A stretch of 58,290 nt of DNA. Source: Bacteroidota bacterium (GTDB lineage Bacteria; Bacteroidota; Ignavibacteria; Ignavibacteriales; Ignavibacteriaceae). Under the pieces are notes generated by a model that was not told the origin of the DNA, ran no database searches, and saw only the letters and a list, made by a program, of their open reading frames with translations. Made by a program: the position numbers and the translations under genes. The stretch is from contig JADFPP010000011.1 in the NCBI GenBank assembly GCA_022562275.1, forward strand, positions 1 to 58,290, written 5' to 3'. Positions within the stretch are counted from its first letter, which is position 1; every line of letters begins with the position of its first letter. This document shows positions 47,939 to 58,290 of this stretch, piece by piece.

Positions 47939-49087
47939 ATGAAGCGATTAATCATAAGCTCGGTTATTTTAGTTTTTATTTTTGTTGCATATGCAATTTT
48001 GCCACCCGAAAGGACGGGTAATTTTCTTGTAACAAGTTTCGGTAACGACAGCATTGCTGTTTATGATTCACTTGGCAATTACCTTCGTACATTCACTGCC
48101 CCGGGAGTAAGCGGACCTCGCGGAATAGTTTTTGCCCCTAACAATAAAATTTATATCGCGAGCCAGTTTACGGGTGAAATCTTTGTCTTTAATTCTGATG
48201 AGCAGTTCATTACGAAATTTACAAGTGCTGAGCTGGATGGTCCCACAGGAATGGCAGTGTCAAACCAGGGTGAATTATATGTTGCAAGTTTTAATAATGA
48301 TCAGGTAGTTGTGTTTGATTTAGACGGGAATTTCCTTCGAACATTTACAGGCGGATCATTAAATGGTACAAACTGTGTTGCTATAGATTCGCATGGAGCA
48401 ATTTATGTTTCCAGTGCTCTTAATTCGCTGATATTAAAATTTGATGCTAACGAAAATTTCATGTTCGAATTTACCGGCGGGGGTATTTCCAGTCCGATGA
48501 GCATTGCAAGAAATACTAGCGATGTGCTTTATATATCCGGAGGTGGTTCGAATAACATAGTAAAGTTTGATACTTTAGGAAATATGGTGGGCGTAATTAC
48601 TCATCCCGATTTACCCGCACCACAGGGAATTGCTTTTGATAACAGGGGACATTTTTTCTCGTCTTCATTTTCAGCGCATAAAATTGTTGAGTTTGATGAA
48701 AACGATAACTATGTACAAACAATAACTTCTGGAAATTTGCAAGTACCACGTAGCATTGCTTTTAAACATCTTAAGCCGGTTACTTCTGTTGAAGATGAAA
48801 TAACTGTTGCTGAATTTGAATTAGATCAGAACTATCCCAACCCGTTTAATCCAACAACAAAGATAAAATTTACAATTCAGTCAGATGTCAGACGTGAAAT
48901 GTTAAACGTGAGTTTAAAAGTTTATGATGTTTTAGGTAATGAAATTGTAATATTAGTTAACGAAGAAAAACCCTCAGGAAGTTACGAGGTTGAATTTAGC
49001 GGGGCAGAATTACCAAGCGGAATATATTTTTACAAACTGGATGCAGGAAATTTTTCTGATACAAAGAAAATGATGCTGCTCAAATAA
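47939..49087 (+). CDS. secreted NHL-repeat protein with T9SS C-terminal sorting domain
   Basis: A 382-residue protein with an N-terminal signal anchor (about residues 3-20). Residues 25-280 form a repeated beta-propeller of NHL/SMP-30-like blades; the recurrent unit resembles FDxxGNFLRTFTG...GPxGIAxD. The C-terminal 85 residues are a type IX sorting domain: FELDQNYPNPFNPTTKIKFT, then LKVYDVLGNEI, LPSGIYFYKL and a terminal TKKMMLLK. It should be exported by Sec and then the T9SS to the surface. The ligand is unknown. Confidence 0.9.
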   Translation: MKRLIISSVILVFIFVAYAILPPERTGNFLVTSFGNDSIAVYDSLGNYLRTFTAPGVSGPRGIVFAPNNKIYIASQFTGEIFVFNSDEQFITKFTSAELDGPTGMAVSNQGELYVASFNNDQVVVFDLDGNFLRTFTGGSLNGTNCVAIDSHGAIYVSSALNSLILKFDANENFMFEFTGGGISSPMSIARNTSDVLYISGGGSNNIVKFDTLGNMVGVITHPDLPAPQGIAFDNRGHFFSSSFSAHKIVEFDENDNYVQTITSGNLQVPRSIAFKHLKPVTSVEDEITVAEFELDQNYPNPFNPTTKIKFTIQSDVRREMLNVSLKVYDVLGNEIVILVNEEKPSGSYEVEFSGAELPSGIYFYKLDAGNFSDTKKMMLLK

Positions 49088-49126
49088 AGATCTATCGAGG
49101 TGCATCTCAACCATATAAAATAATAC

Positions 49127-49729
49127 TTAAAACTCACATCCTCTTGTGTAAGAGTTGTGCAGCAGTTTTTTGTATTCATCAAACGAAATTTCAATTGCAC
49201 CAAACATTTGTAAATGTTCGGTCATATATTGAACATCCAGAAGAAGAAAATCCTTTTCGATTAAGTGATTGATCAGTGCTACTAATGCAGCTTTTGATGC
49301 TTCAGAAACACTTGAAAACATCGATTCGCCAAAAAAAGCACCCCTGAAAGTAACTCCATAAAGACCACCAACAAGTTCACCATCAAGCCATGTTTCAACA
49401 GTATGAACATGTCCGCGCTTTCTTAATCTTTTATATGCCTTAATTAATTCTTCTGAAATCCACGTTTCTTTCCTGTCAGAACAACGCATAATAACCTGGG
49501 TAAAATCCTCATCCAATTTTATTTCAAAATTCTTCTTTTTAATTGCCTTTCGTGCAGAGCGGGGGATCTTATAATTGTCCAGGGGTATTATGGATCTTAC
49601 ATCCGGCATATACCAATTAATTGCACCGGTTTTATCATCTGCCATTGGGAATGCGCCGCTTGCGTAAAGCCTTAGCATATTATCAGGTTTAAGTAATTCC
49701 TTCGGGTCAAATTTATTCCGAGAATCCAT
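49127..49729 (-). CDS. aat: leucyl/phenylalanyl-tRNA-protein transferase
   Basis: Adds Leu or Phe to N-terminal Lys/Arg of proteins, marking them for ClpAP (N-degron pathway). It is 200 residues long. Landmarks are YASGAFPMADDKTGAINWYMPDVRSIIPLD, TWISEELIKAYKRLRKRGHVHTVETW, and LVGGLYGVTFRGAFFGESMFS. This is a close match to the family in length and motif order. It is monocistronic and convergent with the T9SS gene. Confidence 0.95.
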   Translation of the reverse strand: MDSRNKFDPKELLKPDNMLRLYASGAFPMADDKTGAINWYMPDVRSIIPLDNYKIPRSARKAIKKKNFEIKLDEDFTQVIMRCSDRKETWISEELIKAYKRLRKRGHVHTVETWLDGELVGGLYGVTFRGAFFGESMFSSVSEASKAALVALINHLIEKDFLLLDVQYMTEHLQMFGAIEISFDEYKKLLHNSYTRGCEF

Positions 49730-49917
49730 ATTTAATTATATCTTGTTCTAAATAAGGTTAAATTTAACAATAATTTTTTACTCTCTCAATTTACTATAGA
49801 AGAGTGTATTATGTTTTACCCGTGCTATAAATAGTGTTTTTATTTGAAGATAGAGCTTTATAAGTTAATGCTTTGTTTTCAATTGATTGTTTATTAAAAA
49901 TCTTCAGGGAATAAATA

Positions 49918-50868
49918 TTGATAAAGAAAATTGCTGTTGTTGCTTTTGGAGGTAATGCCTTGCTCAGGGATAATGAGATAGGTACAATTAAGCAGCAGGA
50001 AAAACATGCTTATGATACATTAACTCATTTATTAAAGTTATTAGAGGATGACTTTAGCATCGTAATTACACATGGAAACGGTCCGCAGGTAGGAAACATT
50101 ATGCTTAGAAACGATGCCGGATATAATGAGTTTAAAATTCCTAAAATGCCTCTGGATATTTGCGTTGCAGATTCTCAGGGTGGCATTGGATATATGATTG
50201 AACGCCAGATGAAAAACATACTGAACGAAAATAAAATAAAAAAAAATGTTGTTACATTTGTTACACAGGTAGTTGTTGATATTGATGATCCTGCTTTTAA
50301 GGAACCGACAAAACCAATTGGTGCTTTCTATCTTAAAGAGGAATCTGAGTTGCTTTCAAAATCAAATCCAAATCTTGTTTTTAAGGAAGACCCGGGCAAA
50401 AGAGGATGGCGAAGAGTAGTACCATCACCCAAACCAATTGATATAATTAACAAAGAAGCCATTAAAGATCTAACAAAGAAAGACAATATTGTAATTGCTG
50501 TAGGCGGCGGCGGGGTTCCTGTTTATAGAGACAATAATAAGAATCTACAAGGTGTAGAAGCAGTAATTGATAAAGACCTTGCTTCGGCTTTACTGGCAAG
50601 GGAGATTGGTGCGGATGCTTTTTATATTATTACCGATGTTCCAAAGGTTTATGTTAATTTTAAAAAACCGGACCAAAAAGGACTTGACAAAATAACAGTA
50701 GCAGAAGCTGAAAAATACTATGAAGAAGGGGAGTTTGCAGCAGGAAGCATGGGACCCAAGATACTTGCAGCTATTGATTTTGTAAAAAACGGTGGGAAAG
50801 AAACAATTATTACTGAATCAACTCAGTTGGCAATTCCAAATTGCGGCACGCGCATAGTACTAAAATAA
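49918..50868 (+). CDS. arcC: carbamate kinase
   Basis: Converts carbamoyl phosphate and ADP to ATP, carbamate and ammonia. The 316 residues contain VVAFGGNALLRD at the N-terminus, ITHGNGPQVGNIMLR, VVPSPKPIDI, VAVGGGGVPVYRD, and GSMGPKILAAIDFV. It belongs to the amino-acid-kinase superfamily. The start is TTG with AGGGA 8 nt upstream. No arcA or arcB is adjacent, so the source of carbamoyl phosphate is not visible here. Confidence 0.93.
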   Translation: MIKKIAVVAFGGNALLRDNEIGTIKQQEKHAYDTLTHLLKLLEDDFSIVITHGNGPQVGNIMLRNDAGYNEFKIPKMPLDICVADSQGGIGYMIERQMKNILNENKIKKNVVTFVTQVVVDIDDPAFKEPTKPIGAFYLKEESELLSKSNPNLVFKEDPGKRGWRRVVPSPKPIDIINKEAIKDLTKKDNIVIAVGGGGVPVYRDNNKNLQGVEAVIDKDLASALLAREIGADAFYIITDVPKVYVNFKKPDQKGLDKITVAEAEKYYEEGEFAAGSMGPKILAAIDFVKNGGKETIITESTQLAIPNCGTRIVLK

Positions 50869-50953
50869 AAATATAGCCGCTAAGCATAATAATTCACCCC
50901 ATATAATTAAATATGCGAAGAATTTAACCTCCCTTTTTTAATTGTAGAAGTAA

Positions 50954-51685
50954 TTATATCTCGGTTCTTTTGATAAATTGCAAAATAATCGGATCATCAG
51001 AATTTATTAACTGCTCCTGGCTTCCAATAAAATAGATTTTTCCATCGTGCATCATAGCCACTTTATTTGCCACATTTTTTACACTGTACATATCATGAGT
51101 TACCACAATTGAAGTTACATTTAGTTTGTCTGTTAAATCTTTTATCAATTTATCTATTGAGTCTGCCATAATCGGATCGAGTCCGGTTGTTGGCTCATCG
51201 TAAAGAATATAATCAGGATTTGTAATTAATGCCCGGGCTAAAGCAACCCGTTTTTTCATTCCCCCGGAAAGTTCAGCCGGTTTTAATTTTTGAGTCCCCG
51301 GCAATTCAACCATTTCAAGCATCTTTTCTACAAGAGAGTTAATCTCGGTATTGGTATAACCATTTGCTGAATCAACCAGGGGCAGGGATATGTTTTCTTC
51401 CACAGTCATCGAATCGAATAGAGCTGCTCCCTGAAACAAAAATCCGAATTTTCTTCGGAGCTTGTAGAGATCTTTCATTTCCAATTCGTTAATAATTTGA
51501 TCTTCGACCTTAACAGTACCGGAATCAGGTATGAGCAAACCAACAATGTGTTTGATCAAAACACTTTTACCACAACCACTTTTCCCAATTACTACAATCG
51601 TCTCACCAGAATCAATTTTTAGATTTATTCCTTTTAGAACCTTATTTTCCCCGAAGCTTTTATGTAAATCTACAATCTCAATCAT
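50954..51685 (-). CDS. ABC transporter ATPase, Mla/Ttg2A-like
   Basis: A 243-residue ATP-binding subunit. Walker A is GKSGCGKS (33-40), the Q-loop segment is FLFQGAALFDSMTVEENISLPL (typical of MlaF), the signature is LSGGMKKRVALARAL, and Walker B is DYILYDEPTTGLDP. Members energise retrograde phospholipid transport between the outer and inner membrane. The MlaE permease and MlaD partners are not adjacent; the next gene upstream (15-nt gap) is an unrelated M2 peptidase. Confidence 0.88.
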   Translation of the reverse strand: MIEIVDLHKSFGENKVLKGINLKIDSGETIVVIGKSGCGKSVLIKHIVGLLIPDSGTVKVEDQIINELEMKDLYKLRRKFGFLFQGAALFDSMTVEENISLPLVDSANGYTNTEINSLVEKMLEMVELPGTQKLKPAELSGGMKKRVALARALITNPDYILYDEPTTGLDPIMADSIDKLIKDLTDKLNVTSIVVTHDMYSVKNVANKVAMMHDGKIYFIGSQEQLINSDDPIILQFIKRTEI

Positions 51686-51699
51686 TTTAAATTTATAAA

Positions 51700-53502
51700 C
51701 TAAAAGTTTTCGCGCAGAGTATATGTTCTTCCTTCGTTAACTTTTTTAAGATAATCCATCAAAGGGGCAAAATAGTCAACCATTGGTTTTGCGCTCATTT
51801 CAGAACCAAGGCTCTTTTTCATTAACTCTCTCCAATCTACAGTTGCTCCCGGCGACATAACATCGGATAGAAACTTTCCCACTTCCTTATTTCCATAATA
51901 ATTTGTTGCATGCGGGTCCTGCTGAAGAATCTGCTTTGCTATGTAATTGTGAAACTGGAATAGAAGTACGTAAGAAATTGCATAATCATAATATTGAGCA
52001 GCATCGTTATTTATATGAGTTTTGGATGCTGCATCACAGTATTGTTCACCCCTGTCATAAGGCGGCACAATTCCCTGGTATTTTCTTTTTAAATTCCACC
52101 ATTCTAAATTATACTGATCTTTTGGCAGATTAAGTGTGTATAATTCATACTCAAAATCAGTCATAACACCAGCGCTCCACGGTATAAATATAATGTATTC
52201 CAGCGCTTCTTTAAATAGCACTTGTATGTCATCCAATTTTACATTCTTTGGTATCAAACCCATCTCTTCTAAAAATGGTTGTTGAAGAGAAGCCAACCCG
52301 ATCATACTTCCAAATGCTTCGTGGAAACCCCTGTTACCACCTTCCCGTAAAATATAGGGTACATCCGGATTTGAATAAGATAAGAAATAATAAATATGTC
52401 CAAGCTCATGCAGAGATGTGCTCCACCAATCAGAATTTTTAACATCTACACTCATCAAAGATCTAATATCACGCTCGAAATCCATATGCCAGGCAGATGC
52501 ATGATTATTCTTTTTATAATCTGCGTCCGGCGGGGCAGGATACAAACTGGATTTTTCCCAGAAAGTTTGTGGTAGATTTTCAAATCCCAAACTCACATAA
52601 AAATCTTCACCCTTTTTTACAATCCACTCAGCAGATTTTTTTTCCAATTCCTCACTAAAATTTATTCCCTCTACTTCCACCAGTTCTTTCCAATCCTGCC
52701 CCCATCTGTTTGGCAGCCAGTGTGCCGGAAGCATTTCGGGAACATCCTCTCCATATTTTTCAGCAAGAATATATCGTGCCCATGTATGAAGCTCTCTGTA
52801 TAATGGCCAGATATCTCTTATCATATTCTGACAAACATCACGCATTTCATCAACCGTCATACCGTAATCAGAAACCTGATAGGTAAAGTAATCATCATAA
52901 CCAAGTGCCTGTACTGATTTATTTCTTAATCGTTGGAGATTTGCCAATCCATCTTTTAGTCCAATTCCCACCTCTTTACTTGCTTCCCATGTTTTAAGTC
53001 TTTTTTTAATATTATTTTCAGTTTTTAAACTCACATCAATTTCATTAGTAGATACCGACTTATTATCGATTTTAAAATCAAATCCATAAAGCAATTGCGT
53101 TTGTTTTATGTCCGCCTCTATTTTTTCCTTAACTATTTCACTTGCAGTTTCAGGATTACTGGCAGCCAGGTAAAGAACTCTTTTTAATTGTCTGATCTGC
53201 AGGTCGGTTAGTTCATTTTTTAATTTAAGATACTTAGCAGCCTTTTCTATATTTTCTCTACTGCCGGTAAACTGTGCATAATTAGCTTGAGCATCCTGAG
53301 CATTTTTGCTTGTGATGGTATCGCCTTCAACAATTTTAGTGTTCAGCGCCCATTCTCCTTTATTCCACTCATAGCCAAGCTGCCGATATTGTTTATTATA
53401 ATCTTCTAAGTATACCTGTACTTCGTTTTGAAGATCTGAATTTTTTGAACAGGATATGATCGTTAATAAAATGATCAGAAGAAGATAATTTATAGTTTTC
53501 AT
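51700..53502 (-). CDS. M2-family metallopeptidase lipoprotein (ACE-like peptidyl-dipeptidase)
   Basis: A 600-residue zinc dipeptidase-type enzyme with a lipoprotein signal (lipobox ending IISC, Cys18), so it is anchored in the periplasm or on the outer membrane. The zinc site is HELGH (His365, Glu366, His369) with the third ligand Glu395 in HEAFG, in the M2 pattern. The helical C-terminal region contains KYQGIVPPYDRGEQYCDAASK. Bacterial homologues (Dcp/ACE-like) cut C-terminal dipeptides. The ABC ATPase follows after 14 nt. Confidence 0.92.
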   Translation of the reverse strand: MKTINYLLLIILLTIISCSKNSDLQNEVQVYLEDYNKQYRQLGYEWNKGEWALNTKIVEGDTITSKNAQDAQANYAQFTGSRENIEKAAKYLKLKNELTDLQIRQLKRVLYLAASNPETASEIVKEKIEADIKQTQLLYGFDFKIDNKSVSTNEIDVSLKTENNIKKRLKTWEASKEVGIGLKDGLANLQRLRNKSVQALGYDDYFTYQVSDYGMTVDEMRDVCQNMIRDIWPLYRELHTWARYILAEKYGEDVPEMLPAHWLPNRWGQDWKELVEVEGINFSEELEKKSAEWIVKKGEDFYVSLGFENLPQTFWEKSSLYPAPPDADYKKNNHASAWHMDFERDIRSLMSVDVKNSDWWSTSLHELGHIYYFLSYSNPDVPYILREGGNRGFHEAFGSMIGLASLQQPFLEEMGLIPKNVKLDDIQVLFKEALEYIIFIPWSAGVMTDFEYELYTLNLPKDQYNLEWWNLKRKYQGIVPPYDRGEQYCDAASKTHINNDAAQYYDYAISYVLLFQFHNYIAKQILQQDPHATNYYGNKEVGKFLSDVMSPGATVDWRELMKKSLGSEMSAKPMVDYFAPLMDYLKKVNEGRTYTLRENF

Positions 53503-53685
53503 TTTGTCCTTGAAGATTAATTAGAAAAAGTTCCATTTTTATATTTAATATTATGCATAGCATTAAGTTTAATTTTCTGATATCAAAATTAAATGATTAA
53601 TAACATTTTATTGCTAAAATCAGTTCAATATTTTTTATCAACGACTATTTTATAATTAATTTGTAACAGCTGCTGCGATCTTTAT

Positions 53686-54741
53686 TCAATTAACTTTCAA
53701 GTTTTCTAACAGTTCATTAAATGCGATATTATATTCATTGGGTTTATTCCAATTTGTAAAGTCGCTGATATGTTTTTCGGATAATATTTTATTTAACACG
53801 GATTTATCTCCACTTGTTATATCGCTATTAATTTTCAAGGGCATCAGTATGGATCGTTTTCTTTGCCCGTCTTCAGCCAACACATCTTCAACTTCTGTTA
53901 TAATCCACTTACTATTAGTAGAGTTATTAGATAGGATAACTAATAATTTATCTTCGGCAGTATTAACTTCATTTATTAAGTCTTTTACTCTATCTCCTGT
54001 TTTCTTATTATCCGGAGTTAGCCAGCATCTTATACCCTCATTCTGTAAATCCCTATGCAGTTTTATGGCAAATAGTTTATCTTCGTTTGAATACAAAATA
54101 AAGCAGGAATAATATTGTGCAGTTATCTCCGAAAGAGAGGGGAGATATTTAATAAAATCTTCTGTTAACCCGATACCTCTTAAAAATTCCTGCGGTAAGA
54201 TATCTCCATACCTTAAAAGTATATTAGCATCTACGTATGATCTTGAACGGTGTAAACAATTAGCCAACCCTTCTAATTGCAATAAATCAACATCAGAGAA
54301 AACAGTTTGTCCTAAAATTGCAGAATCAAAGTTAGTATTATTGAAAAATGTTTTAATGAAACTTGTACTATATAAGTTAGCCCTGGCAAGATTGGCATTA
54401 TCAAGAGTTGCCCAAAAGAAATTAACCTGACGGAGATTAGCCGCACTGAGATTTGCATTACTAAGATCTGCCCCAATAAAATCCGATGCACATAAATTAG
54501 CCCCGGTTAGATCTGTTTCTACAAGTACAGATTCTGTAAGATCAACTCCGTACAGATTAGTTTCATAAAGATTAGCCCCTGTGAGATCAGTCCTGCTGAG
54601 GAAAGCCCCGGAAAGATCAATCATACTGAGATCAATATCGGTTAAGGTAGCCCCCCTGAGATTAAGTCGTTCGCCCGTATTGCGATCTGCTAACCACATT
54701 TTATGGCGATGGAGTAATTTTTGTATTTCTTGTTTTTTCAT
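53686..54741 (-). CDS. pentapeptide-repeat/TIR-domain fusion protein
   Basis: A 351-residue cytosolic protein. Residues 25-150 are pentapeptide repeats (A(N/D)LxxA units such as TGANLYETNLYGVDL and GADLSNANLSAANL), giving a right-handed quadrilateral beta helix. Residues about 209-345 form a TIR domain beginning YYSCFILYSNEDK. In TIR NADases the catalytic Glu follows a serine/tryptophan; here SKWIITE places Glu283 there, so NAD hydrolysis is possible. The architecture suggests recognition by the solenoid and signalling or cell-death by the TIR domain, as in antiphage TIR proteins. That role is inference; no partner gene is adjacent. Confidence 0.85.
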   Translation of the reverse strand: MKKQEIQKLLHRHKMWLADRNTGERLNLRGATLTDIDLSMIDLSGAFLSRTDLTGANLYETNLYGVDLTESVLVETDLTGANLCASDFIGADLSNANLSAANLRQVNFFWATLDNANLARANLYSTSFIKTFFNNTNFDSAILGQTVFSDVDLLQLEGLANCLHRSRSYVDANILLRYGDILPQEFLRGIGLTEDFIKYLPSLSEITAQYYSCFILYSNEDKLFAIKLHRDLQNEGIRCWLTPDNKKTGDRVKDLINEVNTAEDKLLVILSNNSTNSKWIITEVEDVLAEDGQRKRSILMPLKINSDITSGDKSVLNKILSEKHISDFTNWNKPNEYNIAFNELLENLKVN

Positions 54742-55025
54742 ATCTATAATCTAACGAATGGTAATCTTAGTGTCTATCTTCACAACTCTCTTGCAACAAC
54801 AACATCAGTTCTTAAATTCTCAACAACTCCAGCGCTTTCATTAATTGCCTCGAGGAAGAAAATATAAAATCCAATACGGAATGCTTCGCTGGGGGTCATC
54901 TCTTCTATCAAAAATCACCGAGCCTGATGAGCCGCTTGCCTGACTGTTAGCCTACGGTTTGTATAACAAGCGTAGCATCCCATAGAGTGCTATGATTTCA
55001 TATACATTATTGTGTGTAGGTATTT
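54742..55025. other. gene-free spacer with a cassette-edge-like motif
   Basis: No coding frame is credible here. At 54933..54972 the sequence contains CGCTTG, then GTTAGCC (54946..54952), and after a short gap TAACAAGCG (54964..54972). The same GTTAGCC and TAACAAGCG strings mark the two edges of the last cargo gene at 57560 and 58197. It may be the scar of an earlier cassette. Confidence 0.4.
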
Positions 55026-55703
55026 TTATTTGTACGCTTCATTCGCTTTTTTATGTAGTCTTAAAAGTCCTGGAATTCCTTTAATCAAATCCCAAATGGC
55101 TATAAATCCACCTTGAGAAAGAGCCTTCAACATAATAAAAGGATTTGGTTTTGCCGGTTCAAAATGCTCTTCCGTGATAATTCGATTCTTATTTAAAGTG
55201 GATAACACTTCTGAAACTTTTGCTGGATTATTCCAATCCCCTCTAAAGACTACTGTCCCTTCGGTATTGATTATATATAACATATCGGGCAAACCGCCAT
55301 ATTGTAAATGGAAATCACCATTTAAGTTGTCAATTAGGATAACTCTATTTTCACCATATAATTTCTTTGTCTTGGTGGCTAAATTTATTTTTTGTTTTAA
55401 AGTTCGATGCTCTGTTGTTCTTTCACCGGGATGTGCTTCACGGACATAAATCAATAAGAAACCGACATTTGGAAACTTGTCCTTTAAGTTCTCCATTTGG
55501 GGGATACACTTTGCATACATTGGGCAAGTAATACTTCCTGTTTCGAGTACGATCGGTTTATCCAAAAAACCTGAAAGCATAACCTGTTTCCCATTTATGT
55601 CATATAAGTGCAAGTCGATAAGCTTTTCCCCTGCTTTTGGACCTGGGAAATTTGCCAAATCATAGAATTTGGTCTTAAAATTTTTATAATTATAATCTGT
55701 CAT
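55026..55703 (-). CDS. deiodinase-like redoxin (Cys in the selenocysteine position)
   Basis: A 225-residue thioredoxin-fold protein of the iodothyronine-deiodinase-like family (PF00837 group). The active-site segment is ETGSITCPMYAKC: Cys60 lies where vertebrate deiodinases have selenocysteine (GSCTU), and Cys66 could resolve it. Further landmarks are FLLIYVREAHPGE, LIDNLNGDFHLQYGGLPD, and VVFRGDWNNP. It has no signal peptide. I use the ATG at 55703; a GTG at 55727 lies inside the adjacent repeat. A leftward -7-like box in that repeat may drive it. True substrate unknown; peroxiredoxin-like activity is likely. Confidence 0.8.
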   Translation of the reverse strand: MTDYNYKNFKTKFYDLANFPGPKAGEKLIDLHLYDINGKQVMLSGFLDKPIVLETGSITCPMYAKCIPQMENLKDKFPNVGFLLIYVREAHPGERTTEHRTLKQKINLATKTKKLYGENRVILIDNLNGDFHLQYGGLPDMLYIINTEGTVVFRGDWNNPAKVSEVLSTLNKNRIITEEHFEPAKPNPFIMLKALSQGGFIAIWDLIKGIPGLLRLHKKANEAYK

Positions 55704-55723
55704 TTCTATTATTTTTTGCTTAC

Positions 55724-56066
55724 ACACAACTTCTTAATAAACCTGTATGTTAACAGGCAGGCGATGCGTTGTAACTGCAAATTAACCACTAAATTATGTT
55801 AGTACAAATATAGTAAAACACATTTACCATTTTTTTAAAGTTGTACTTCTTACAATTCCTATAACTATTATGATGATTAAAAATAAAGTTAGAATCATTA
55901 CTGAATTTTTAACCAATCTGTAATCTGACCCACCCTCTTTAAGAGACATAATTCCAATAATAATATGCGGGTATATTTCATATTATACTGCACGAAAATG
56001 AATTTCTTTACTTACTATGTAATATGTTGTATTTTTATAATAATGCGGATATTGGCGGTAGAATAT
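55724..56066. repeat. cassette-array repeat, copy 1 (about 340 bp)
   Basis: It is directly repeated 1.49 kb downstream (copy 2). The stretch 55949..56009 is identical for 61 nt to 57440..57500, and most of the remainder aligns with scattered substitutions and short indels. It starts with a CCTGT...ACAGG hairpin. On the minus strand, TATATTTG (55812..55805) is a -7-like box pointing toward the deiodinase-like gene. It has no insertion-sequence or RNA features that I recognise. Confidence 0.85.
55824..55949 (-). CDS. possible 41-residue membrane peptide encoded in repeat copy 1
   Basis: ATG at 55949 opens MSLKEGGSDYRLVKNSV, followed by one very hydrophobic segment (ILTLFLIIIIVIGIV) and a basic tail, with the stop at 55824. 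In copy 2 the same frame is mostly kept but the ATG has become AGG and a TGA appears after the hydrophobic segment. The conserved part shows conservative changes. It may be a relic of a small gene or chance; the ribosome-binding site is weak. Confidence 0.3.
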   Translation of the reverse strand: MSLKEGGSDYRLVKNSVMILTLFLIIIIVIGIVRSTTLKKW

Positions 56067-56127
56067 ATATTATATTACACAATTACGAAACTTGTGAACT
56101 TAGAGCGAGGTTTGTTTCTAGGTGAAC

Positions 56128-56134
56128 GTTATGT
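56128..56134 (+). other. left edge motif of the metallo-hydrolase cargo (GTTATGT)
   Basis: GTTATGT is preceded by GTGAAC, so the local 10-mer is GTGAACGTTA (56122..56131). The identical 10-mer recurs at 57161..57170, just past the cargo, and ATATAAC (57146..57152) is complementary to GTTATGT at six of seven positions. The base composition changes sharply from here. It resembles an integron core site (G|TTRRRY form) or a target-site duplication. Confidence 0.45.
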
Positions 56135-56143
56135 GGAAGCCAA

Positions 56144-57082
56144 ATGTATTACCAAGTCTTGTCAGATGAAGCACGAGTAGTGCACCCAAGCCAGGCCCGT
56201 AAAAACGCCTTCGCCGCTCATCATCTTGAAATACGGATGTTTCACGGCGGGCACGGCGAGTGCATCCTTGTCGTCTTTCCTGATAATAATTGCTGGTTGG
56301 TAGATTGCGGACAGGGTACTGGAGATCGGTCTAATGAAACTCTGGCTGCAAACGTCGTCACCTATCTTGAACGTAACGGTCTGCATCTTGATGCCATTAT
56401 CCCCACCCATCCGCACTCAGACCACGCAAAAGCCTTCACGACTATTCTCGCAGACCCTTCGCCTAACATAACCAGCCCGCTAACGATCTATCGAAGCAAC
56501 GATCCCGGCTGGTCTGCTTCCGACAAGAAATGGTTGGTTCCTTACCGAAGTGCAGCGGCATCCCGGGGCGTCGATAATGTATTGGAGGACAAGAGAATTA
56601 AAGTATCTATTGCGCCTGACATATTGGCCCAGTTATTTGCTGGCAGTTCGGGCAAACGTTTTTACATCAGCATATTCCTGCAGATCCAATTCCATGGAGC
56701 AAGGATTCTTTTTACCGGCGACGCTTACAAATCCTATGAAAGAGGTCTTAGAGATAGATTCGGGACTGAATTCTTTAGAGCCGATGTTCTCAAAATTACT
56801 CATCACGGTAGCGAACACGGAACCGACGAAGGAGTTCTCAGGGACATTCTTCCAGGAATCGCAATTGCCTCAACTGGACAGGGTGGTGGCCATCGGCTCG
56901 AGGCCGAAACAAGAGATCACATTAAAGCAGGCGGGCCTCGAGTGCGGGTGTTCGAGACTTTCCGGGACCAAAACCAACAGGAGAATAAGCGGGATATCAT
57001 TCTTACTACAGACGGACTTCCAATTAATGGCGCCGGCATTCTCTATAGAGTCCGGCAAGTTGCCCCTGAATTTGGCGATTAG
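56144..57082 (+). CDS. metallo-beta-lactamase-fold hydrolase, ComEC-like (cargo gene)
   Basis: A 312-residue protein of the MBL fold. The signature HxHxDH is complete in THPHSDH (His89, His91, Asp93, His94). Other metal-site elements are the ILFTGDAYKS loop and KITHHGSEHGTDE. The closest pattern is the soluble MBL domain of ComEC/Rec2, a DNA-processing or nuclease-type subfamily. The coding sequence is clearly more GC-rich than the flanking repeats and core genes, so it was probably acquired. The ATG at 56144 lies 10 nt inside the cassette edge and has no ribosome-binding site; Met32 is an alternative. It is flanked by repeat copies 1 and 2. Confidence 0.85.
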   Translation: MYYQVLSDEARVVHPSQARKNAFAAHHLEIRMFHGGHGECILVVFPDNNCWLVDCGQGTGDRSNETLAANVVTYLERNGLHLDAIIPTHPHSDHAKAFTTILADPSPNITSPLTIYRSNDPGWSASDKKWLVPYRSAAASRGVDNVLEDKRIKVSIAPDILAQLFAGSSGKRFYISIFLQIQFHGARILFTGDAYKSYERGLRDRFGTEFFRADVLKITHHGSEHGTDEGVLRDILPGIAIASTGQGGGHRLEAETRDHIKAGGPRVRVFETFRDQNQQENKRDIILTTDGLPINGAGILYRVRQVAPEFGD

Positions 57083-57213
57083 CTTTCGTGTACAAGAGCG
57101 ACGGTTCATAATTTATCCTATAGAAATGGACATCGAGAGTGTGCTATATAACAACTCATTGTGAACGTTACCTAATTCAAAATTTCTTTCGCTTTTTTAA
57201 TTACAGCAATTTG

Positions 57214-57559
57214 GCACAACGTCTCAATAAACCTGTATGCAGACAGACAGGCGCAATGGGTTTCAACTGTAAATTAACCAGTAAAGTATGCTATTATAAA
57301 TATAGTCAAACTCATTTAACATTTTTTTAAGTTGTACTTATTACAATTCAGATAGCAATTATGATTATAAGAAATAAAGTTAGAATTACTACTGAGTTTT
57401 TAGCCAATCTGTAATCTGACCCACTCTCTTTAAGAGACCTAATTCCAATAATAATATGCGGGTATATTTCATATTATACTGCACGAAAATGAATTTCTTT
57501 GCTTACTATATAATATGTTGTATATTTATAATAATGTCGATATTGGTAGTAGAATATAA
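57214..57559. repeat. cassette-array repeat, copy 2
   Basis: Direct repeat of 55724..56066 in the same orientation, with the 61-nt identical run at 57440..57500 and the CCTGT...ACAGG hairpin retained with a changed loop. It ends immediately before the GTTAGCC edge of the next cargo gene. Short frames across it are not credible genes. Together with the spacer 57083..57213, which contains the cargo edge motif ATATAACAACTC, it fills the 492-nt gap. Confidence 0.85.
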
Positions 57560-57566
57560 GTTAGCC
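57560..57566 (+). other. left edge motif of the last cargo gene (GTTAGCC)
   Basis: GTTAGCC is the exact reverse complement of GGCTAAC at 58194..58200, which overlaps the cargo gene's stop codon. The pair brackets one gene and fits the R'/R'' arrangement at the ends of an integron cassette. Confidence 0.5.
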
Positions 57567-57574
57567 GTCGAAGG

Positions 57575-58199
57575 ATGCGATACGTGATGATTACACCTTC
57601 AGAAATGGAGCAGCGACGTTCACCCCGTGGTTTGCGTGAATTCGTAGGTCGGTTCAAGGATGCTGTCCAAGCTGACGAGCCCGAGCGGCATCGCGGGATT
57701 CAGAAGAAGGGGTTGTACAAGGAGTTCCTTGACGAGCTCGTCCCGCTGAGCTGTTTCGCAGTGTGTGCATACCACGAAACTTATGAGGTCGAGCTAGTTC
57801 TGGGAAACCAGCAATACGACGCGGTGGTGTTCAGTGAGACTGGAGAAGAGGTCGATCGCATTCAGATCACCACTCCTCATGATGGCACCGCAGCGGCGAT
57901 CGACGCAAAACGGGTCGTTGGTCAAGGTTACGGCCAGATTCACGTGGGCAACCCCGGTGAGGACTTCGACGCGCTGTTTCCTCATGTGCTCGCCACTTGT
58001 CGGAGGAAAGCCCAGAACGACTACAGTGATTGCACATTGGGTGGTTGCCATCGCGCCAATGCTGCCCTTCCAGTCGTTCGGGGCGCGGTACGAGGAGCAG
58101 ATAGAAGCGCTTGTCAGCGAAATGAAGAAGATCGAATTCAAGGCAAAGAGGGTCTTTCTCCTCGTCCTTCCCGATAGAGTGGTTGACGTTCACGGCTAA
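57575..58199 (+). pseudogene. hypothetical cargo gene with an apparent 1-nt frameshift
   Basis: The first frame (57575 to about 58036) encodes a hydrophilic protein: MITPSEMEQRRSPRGLREF early, FDALFPHVLATCRRKAQND late. Beyond that, the sense frame is the one ending at TAA 58197..58199 (VVAIAPMLPFQSFGARYEEQ and following, ending LPDRVVDVHG). Dropping one G from the GGG run near 58036..58039 joins them into about 207 residues. I do not recognise the family. It is GC-rich, with proteobacteria-like codon use, unlike the host. The start may be ATG 57575 or ATG 57587. Real lesion or assembly error cannot be told apart. Confidence 0.65.
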
Positions 58200-58225
58200 C
58201 AAGCGTTTCGAGAAGGACGCGCGTA
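58194..58225 (+). other. right edge motif of the last cargo gene (GGCTAAC AAGCG)
   Basis: GGCTAAC (58194..58200) contains the stop codon of the cargo gene and is followed by AAGCGTTTCGAGAAGGACGC. This arrangement is characteristic of the left half of attC sites in integron cassettes. It then runs directly into repeat copy 3. Confidence 0.5.
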
Positions 58226-58227
58226 TA

Positions 58228-58290
58228 TTATTACAAATATAGTCAATCACATTTAACATTAGTTGAATTCGCTACATATATATTGAATAT
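58228..58290. repeat. cassette-array repeat, copy 3 (5'-truncated, runs off the window)
   Basis: The segment TTATTACAAATATAGTCAA and the following CATTTAACATT match copies 1 and 2 from about 75 nt inside the repeat (near 55798 and 57290). The first 75 nt are replaced by the edge of the cargo gene. The similarity fades toward the window end. Confidence 0.6.

Follow-up and report, generated by a model that had tools for sequence, protein, structure and literature searches.

The right end of the 58,290-nt stretch analysed here (the window, contig JADFPP010000011.1 of the draft genome of an uncultured Bacteroidota bacterium from the family Ignavibacteriaceae) carries genes that alternate with AT-rich direct repeats, and this locus is probably part of a dispersed integron cassette array. 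Its cassettes, often single, would stand behind copies of a short promoter-like element, here called P, and would have entered at its terminal G^TT (the caret marks the joint) through the action of an integrase encoded elsewhere. The preliminary description of this DNA had proposed a gene-capture array: an integron type is borne out by the G^TT ends, an attC hairpin, copies elsewhere and a shared cassette, whereas an undescribed system with a giant site is not. By way of background, the first bases of an integron cassette pair with an arm at its own 3' end, and the R''/R' and L''/L' arms of its attC site form a hairpin, the site ending in G^TT.

Alignment confirmed the direct AT-rich repeats reported earlier. 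Copies 1 and 2 lie at about 55,722-56,072 and 57,215-57,563, in direct orientation and spaced by about 1,491 nt; they share 242 ungapped nt at 90% identity, two shorter blocks, one of 78 nt (83%) and one of 39 nt (85%), and, in the pairwise alignment, the 61-nt identical run already noticed. The truncated copy 3 is smaller than first implied, comprising 45 nt at 82% identity (58,223-58,267), with a foreign joint at 58,222/58,223 on one side, and it runs into the end of the contig at 58,290, past which no overlapping contig was found. Read on the minus strand, the three copies were delimited as 55,722-56,128, 57,215-57,560 and 58,223-58,290, and they alternate with two plus-strand segments, cargo 1 (56,129-57,167) and cargo 2 (57,561-58,222), whose genes are both oriented opposite to P. 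The cargo is indeed richer in G+C than its surroundings, with fractions of 0.487 and 0.553 compared with 0.28-0.29 in the repeats and 0.341 at 1-54,000; among 212 overlapping 1-kb segments within 1-53,750 the highest value was 0.434 and none reached 0.47.

Beyond the locus, part of the repeat recurs in the same genome and in the genus. When copy 1 was searched against 97 genomes, four had matches, which outside the window covered mostly its first ~140 nt, and only about 90 nt, the element P, recur in the genus. P forms the end of the repeat as read on the minus strand and comprises a promoter-like core and an attC-like right half ending in G^TT; aligned copies have the core ..GTTTGACTATATTTGTAATAACATAC.. 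in common and mostly end in ..GTTTATTGAGACG^TT, beyond which the sequences diverge and different genes begin. In the window, P lies at 55,729-55,835 in copy 1 (core ..TATATTTG..) and at 57,218-57,327 in copy 2, and copy 3 retains the promoter-like core only, its own att half being replaced by the end of cargo 2. A sequence-only model of P, R1, was built from 13 copies in the genome that holds the window (G000, the window being its contig C86) and in G004 and G024; G001-G004 are among the six genomes of the genus. It located 31 places in 8 of 94 genomes, the 13 training copies matching by construction and weak matches being lost to the search filters: 11 in G004, seven each in G000 and G001, two in G003, one each in G024 and G034, and two marginal ones. 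Copies 1 and 2, both of them training copies, scored 72.5 and 74.5 bits, and copy 3 scored 29.2 bits. By this distribution P belongs mainly to the one genus and has outliers elsewhere in the family; in six genomes its copies face many different genes.

The conserved TANNTTTG-like box of the core, which we take to resemble a promoter consensus, suggests that P may function as a promoter; cassettes directly behind it would then probably gain a promoter of their own and not rely on a single platform promoter. By itself, the end of P folds only as a 6-bp hairpin. The paired unit ends of a gene-less promoter cassette were not seen: on inspection, the start of the spacer in relatives (TTGGC..) is unpaired with the att half of P. 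We considered P as the attI of the resident integrase and rejected this, as R1 lists no P on contigs C23 or C45 (see below). An exact search for 25 nt of P in viral contigs found none. At six places (contigs C2, C22 and C51 of G004, C4 of G024, C65 and C38 of G000), another ~130 nt lie before P and contain a terminator-like hairpin oriented towards the opposite strand; this stretch might represent a small RNA or a promoter region acting in both directions.

The clearest cassette in the window, and a complete one, is a deiodinase-like unit that spans 54,955-55,729 on the minus strand, left of copy 1. Its gene (55,026-55,703, minus strand) encodes a deiodinase/redoxin-like protein (T4_deiodinase, E = 3e-12), and its attC of about 66 nt (54,955-55,020, minus strand) has an R'' arm, ACACACAAT, that pairs with the cassette's own start, GTTGTGTGT, at 8 of 9 positions, as well as the L arms TGTATA/TATACA. 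Fold z-scores were -1.8 for the top strand and -3.25 for the bottom strand. This is the one full attC in the window, where cargo 2 contributes a half site.

Comparable ends were found across the P-linked genes. Eight of the 31 places were left out of the own-end comparison (an empty joint, copy 3, C38, G001_693, G001_1467, G004 C51 and the two marginal ones), and 18 of the remaining 23, which had GTT at the expected point, were scored. The start of the gene matched its own end at no fewer than 8 of 9 positions in seven of the 18 and at all nine in three, the deiodinase cassette being counted twice among the seven (G000 and G004) and matching 5 of 17 foreign ends too. Cross pairs reached 8 in 7.5% of cases, and control open reading frames (ORFs) did so, at 8 or more, in 4 of 60 and never at 9. 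The summed score was 129 against a mean of 113.9 (standard deviation 3.0) when starts were shuffled relative to ends over the 18 genes, and none of 20,000 shuffles scored as high. Folding was also applied to eight sites that had been chosen by eye and extended with their own starts, and six of them gave z below -1.8 on both strands; attC hairpins were found in the deiodinase cassette, at the AAA, C2c and C13 sites of G004, and on C77 and C45 of G000. In the resolved cassettes attC measures about 50-70 nt, with longer sites on C77 (~130 nt) and in the array adjacent to intI on C45. By these measures, the P-linked genes appear in part to be integron cassettes. A strict scan for attC by R and L boxes was dropped, since its yield in integrase-bearing loci, no more than one place per strand, was equalled in a control; a consensus fold of eight attC sites yielded no pairs, the alignment having misplaced the arms; and a core pattern of the lineage's attC occurred at five places in two of the six genomes of the genus and nowhere in G000. 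One of the G004 cassettes (G004:C2:20456-22861) carries an 801-aa AAA_13 ATPase, large for a single cassette, with a well-folding attC.

The relatives also provide a case of exchange. The window at 49,158-51,692 is syntenic with positions 1-3,386 of contig C2 of G004, at 75-78% identity. Further along, that contig has six P copies (one weak), five of them directly before a minus-strand gene and the sixth leading to an empty joint, GAGACG followed by TTAGCAAAC; two folded sites (AAA and C2c) lie there together with the deiodinase site, and on C49, C13 and C2c of G004 a second gene follows the first attC with no P before it. The deiodinase cassettes of G000 and G004 are 98.6% identical (coding sequence 99.3%), and in their surroundings the adjacent fragment is at 77.8%, the promoter core at 80.8% and the syntenic chromosome at 75-78%. 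Because identity of 98.6% lies inside flanks of 75-81% (61 nt of P excepted), a cassette-sized unit has moved recently, with edges not exactly at G^TT. Elsewhere, beside a mechanosensitive-channel-like gene (named by reading only), G000 (contig C49) and G001 carry different genes behind a P copy. In G000 the gene behind P (C49:256-1371) encodes an IrrE/ImmA-like domain (Peptidase_M78); together with another frame (C49:1-266) that runs off the contig end it makes up, by reading only, a toxin-antitoxin-like pair.

The fragment that abuts the deiodinase cassette is the 3' part, with the C-terminal domain, of a type IX secretion substrate-like gene (54,784-54,954, minus strand); it is 77.8% identical to its counterpart at the same place in G004, and similar sequence is present in all six genomes of the genus. 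A paralogous 112-aa frame on contig C49 of G000 matched FlgD_ig at 33.4 bits (cut-off 27) and the CHU_C secretion signal at 26.7 bits, just under the cut-off of 27. In the window, P and cargo 1 are separated by a 240-nt stretch, Z, and in relatives its place is taken in several cases by the 3' end of such a secretion gene. In G004 these fragments follow several P-linked genes and are cut between CG and TT in three joints, and between CG and TA behind the deiodinase gene. Recombination between a P site and a secretion-substrate gene would yield spacer fragments cut at or beside G^TT, and the fragments fit an event of this kind between the end of P and a G^TT-like point in the neighbouring gene, in which deletion and capture of a new unit would look alike.

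The two cargo segments resemble cassettes to different degrees. Cargo 1 has GTGAACG^TT on both sides, and these joints suggest that it may be a cassette; its own-end match is 7 of 9 at best. Its gene (56,144-57,082, plus strand) encodes a metallo-beta-lactamase-fold hydrolase (Lactamase_B, 39.7 bits) that resembles the C-terminus of ComEC and LmuA (LmuA, E = 5e-16; ComEC_Rec2, 56.4 bits, far under the cut-off). In plasmids, only proteins less than 60% identical to it were found (61 records), those annotated among the ten listed being ComEC/Rec2. Between cargo 1 and copy 2, a possible minus-strand cassette remnant (57,168-57,214), recognised by reading only, has a frame ending in ..KKAKEILN, then AGGTAAC. 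Cargo 2 starts with G^TTAGCCGT (57,560-57,568) and ends with ACGGCTAAC (58,192-58,200), followed by AAGCGTTTCGAGAAGGACGCGCG; its start GTTAGCCGT matches this end at all nine positions, and it would fit a cassette inserted on the opposite strand. Its gene (57,575-58,199, plus strand) starts and ends in different frames and is thus not one intact frame, being broken by a frameshift or an assembly error. No family matched cargo 2 at the limits used, and no homologue of it was found in plasmids, phages or viral contigs, or, in a search run without a positive control, in nine integrase-bearing genomes.

An integron integrase gene is present elsewhere in the genome. The TIGR02249 profile had no match on the contig of the window and 13 elsewhere in G000, one of them above the curated cut-off, namely the gene on C23 with 303.9 bits (cut-off 265). 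The preliminary description saw no transposase, integrase or recombinase in the window, and no transposase family was found among the five ORFs scanned; the integron integrase, for which C86 gave no match, is encoded on other contigs of the same genome. C23 and C45 are joined by an exact overlap of 127 nt, and C45 carries the start of intI followed by cassettes, in which three of four start motifs have partners at 9/9, 9/9 and 8/9. By reading, C45 fits a complete integron, which needs intI and attI beside the array; C86, with no integron-integrase match, does not. The first attC of the intI-adjacent array (G000:C45:1680-1870) is about 190 nt long, and the next two are longer still by reading. 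A second, decayed intI start (G000:C63:1-160), the first 34 nt of which are exactly as in the C23 copy, probably marks a second, dead integron locus.

Integrases above the cut-off occur in two of the six genomes of the genus. Among 13 integrase loci, the nearest relative of the C23 gene is found in the metagenome-assembled genome B13T1B10, with 96% identity over 255 residues (JACZTL010000013.1, 925-1884, and G000:C23:7020-7947); the longest other matches, the two longest between that genome and the window at 49,000-58,290, reach 66-71% DNA identity. Because of this difference, the integrase probably moved recently between two genera of one family. With 66-71% identity and another genus, B13T1B10 was rejected as a near strain for a comparison of cassette presence and absence. 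Most likely, an integrase from elsewhere in the genome would insert cassettes, in trans, at the G^TT of P copies.

A number of observations weigh against a dispersed integron array. In the fold test of eight sites there was no hairpin at the VOC site of G004 or at cargo 1, where no attC hairpin and no fold signal were found, and the attC of cargo 2 is incomplete, running into the P core after ~30 nt, its right half missing or lost. The left half of P itself is too degenerate to be called a full attC, and a sigma-70 scan, of a kind ill-suited to this phylum, did not rise above shuffles. On the C2 contig of G004, P is absent in front of some genes, and three genes are encoded on the opposite strand. 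As many as 11 of the 18 scored P-linked genes show no convincing match to their own ends; these may have decayed, may comprise several genes or may not be cassettes at all. Five further P sites have no GTT at the expected point. The C23 integrase gene is interrupted near its end, R1 lists no P in the integrase-adjacent array of C45, and four of the six genomes of the genus (G001-G004) have no match above the integrase cut-off, yet three of these carry P copies. Furthermore, the exchanged deiodinase block has its edges off G^TT: the 61 nt beside the cassette, formed by the att half and 5' leader of P, are still 95.1% identical to G004, and at the other edge identity falls about 10 nt inside attC.

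The displaced edges, and the P copies in genomes lacking an integron integrase above the cut-off, would also be expected if genes were swapped by homologous recombination that paired the scattered promoter repeats with copies of the secretion gene, with the att-like marks as fossils and the integron integrase, IntI, of no further importance. We regard this as unlikely, since the shared flanks are short and, past the 61 nt, no more than 78-81% identical, which makes them poor substrates, and since it leaves the matching of cassettes to their own ends unexplained. It is less likely still that the GC-rich cargo and copies 2 and 3 were misjoined at the contig end by a chimeric assembly or contaminated binning. 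The feature does occupy a contig end, the draft comprising 148 contigs with 2.72% contamination, cargo 2 is frameshifted, and the joint of copy 3 is oddly placed; however, copies 1 and 2 are both of the genus P type, the deiodinase side is syntenic with G004, and perfectly matching ends such as those of cargo 2 would be improbable at a random joint.

The stretch Z bears on a further alternative, namely an undescribed capture system in which the whole ~340-nt repeat serves as recombination site, as the preliminary description had contemplated. Such a site would account for the 90% identity of copies 1 and 2 over 242 nt, which includes the stretch with the 61-nt identical run. However, Z, common to both copies, was seen only at this locus apart from a marginal 34-nt match on contig C5 of the same genome (E = 6.5e-4). 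As a DNA query, for which few candidates were scored in each genome, it went unmatched in 96 others; the peptide read from it matched only C86 among 59 genomes, with none in the 58 others, and P alone recurs. By reading, the repeat has an attC-like right half at one end only, just its last ~50 nt on the minus strand being site-like, and several linked genes have ordinary attC hairpins; a giant site is accordingly very improbable. Z was rejected as coding, the 52-aa frame of copy 1 being broken in copy 2 and having no homologue in the 58 other genomes, and is treated as non-coding or a remnant. An exact search for 34 nt of it in viral contigs found none, and the single Rfam match at E up to 1 within 53,000-58,290 was RgsA, with 23.9 bits against a gathering score of 88.4. 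That the direct repeats around the cargo belong to a known transposon flanking one insertion can practically be dismissed, given the lack of TIGR02249-type recombinase and transposase matches reported above, the scarcity of inverted pairs in the region (two, both weak), and P copies facing so many different genes.

A bolder extension of the dispersed integron array may be offered tentatively, as a possibility that we hold to be doubtful. The integron of the genus might have been split into portable platforms of one cassette each, P being a copyable head (promoter and att) that is served in trans, and the spacers holding a secretion-gene 3' end cut at G^TT might be snapshots in which the integrase joined a chromosomal gene to an att site by recombination, thus recording the birth of cassettes or spacers.

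Next to the array, on the minus strand at 53,686-54,741, lies a gene for a 351-aa protein with pentapeptide repeats fused to a TIR domain (Pfam), possibly a defence gene. It is preceded by ..CATTCG^TTAGATT, and no matching 3' end was seen in its flanks, which does not support cassette status.

Regarding known systems, integrons have already been reported in Ignavibacteriae and Chlorobi (PMC9024848). In the open-licence literature we found neither promoter spacers described as recurring in front of single cassettes nor secretion-gene fragments described within such spacers. What appears to be new here is the presence of P before many, although not all, cassettes, and, in relatives, a spacer with the 3' end of a secretion gene cut at G^TT. 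To our knowledge, integron models are mostly based on a single platform promoter and on arrays from few proteobacterial groups. A promoter-like unit before many separate cassettes in another phylum would relieve the silence of distant cassettes in a different manner, and the cut secretion-gene fragments beside att halves offer a concrete place to test how an integrase creates new mobile units.

The closest parallels are the sedentary chromosomal integron arrays and the clusters of attC sites lacking integron integrases (CALIN), defined by at least two attC sites in a row and no integrase. Like these, the array described here has attC hairpins, G^TT ends, foreign genes and no local integrase, with an integrase elsewhere; unlike in these, the cassettes are often single and scattered, many of them behind their own promoter-like spacer. 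In the superintegron of Vibrio cholerae, the lineage-specific repeats between successive cassettes (VCR) are the attC sites themselves. A lineage-specific repeat occurs between successive cassettes here as well, whereas its repeated part is mainly promoter-like and stands before genes that have a separate, shorter attC. Cassettes are also said to insert into genomes at attG sites outside integrons (Loot et al. 2024). The G^TT joints seen here by reading, which lie outside an integron platform, may reflect insertion of this type by an integrase; unlike attG sites, they belong to copies of a single conserved element that has a promoter-like core. Finally, cassettes that lack a gene and show promoter activity are known, both from Vibrio (PMC11014356) and from Treponema and the oral metagenome (PMC6557892). 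They are non-coding promoter units between cassettes that drive the next gene, as P would do, and they differ from P in that a single unit recurs here before many different cassettes, and in that the spacer in relatives contains a portion of a chromosomal gene and has a non-canonical start, unpaired with its own att end. In comparison with all of these, the locus is best described as what appears to be an integron-type capture array with an unusual layout and not as a new kind of system.

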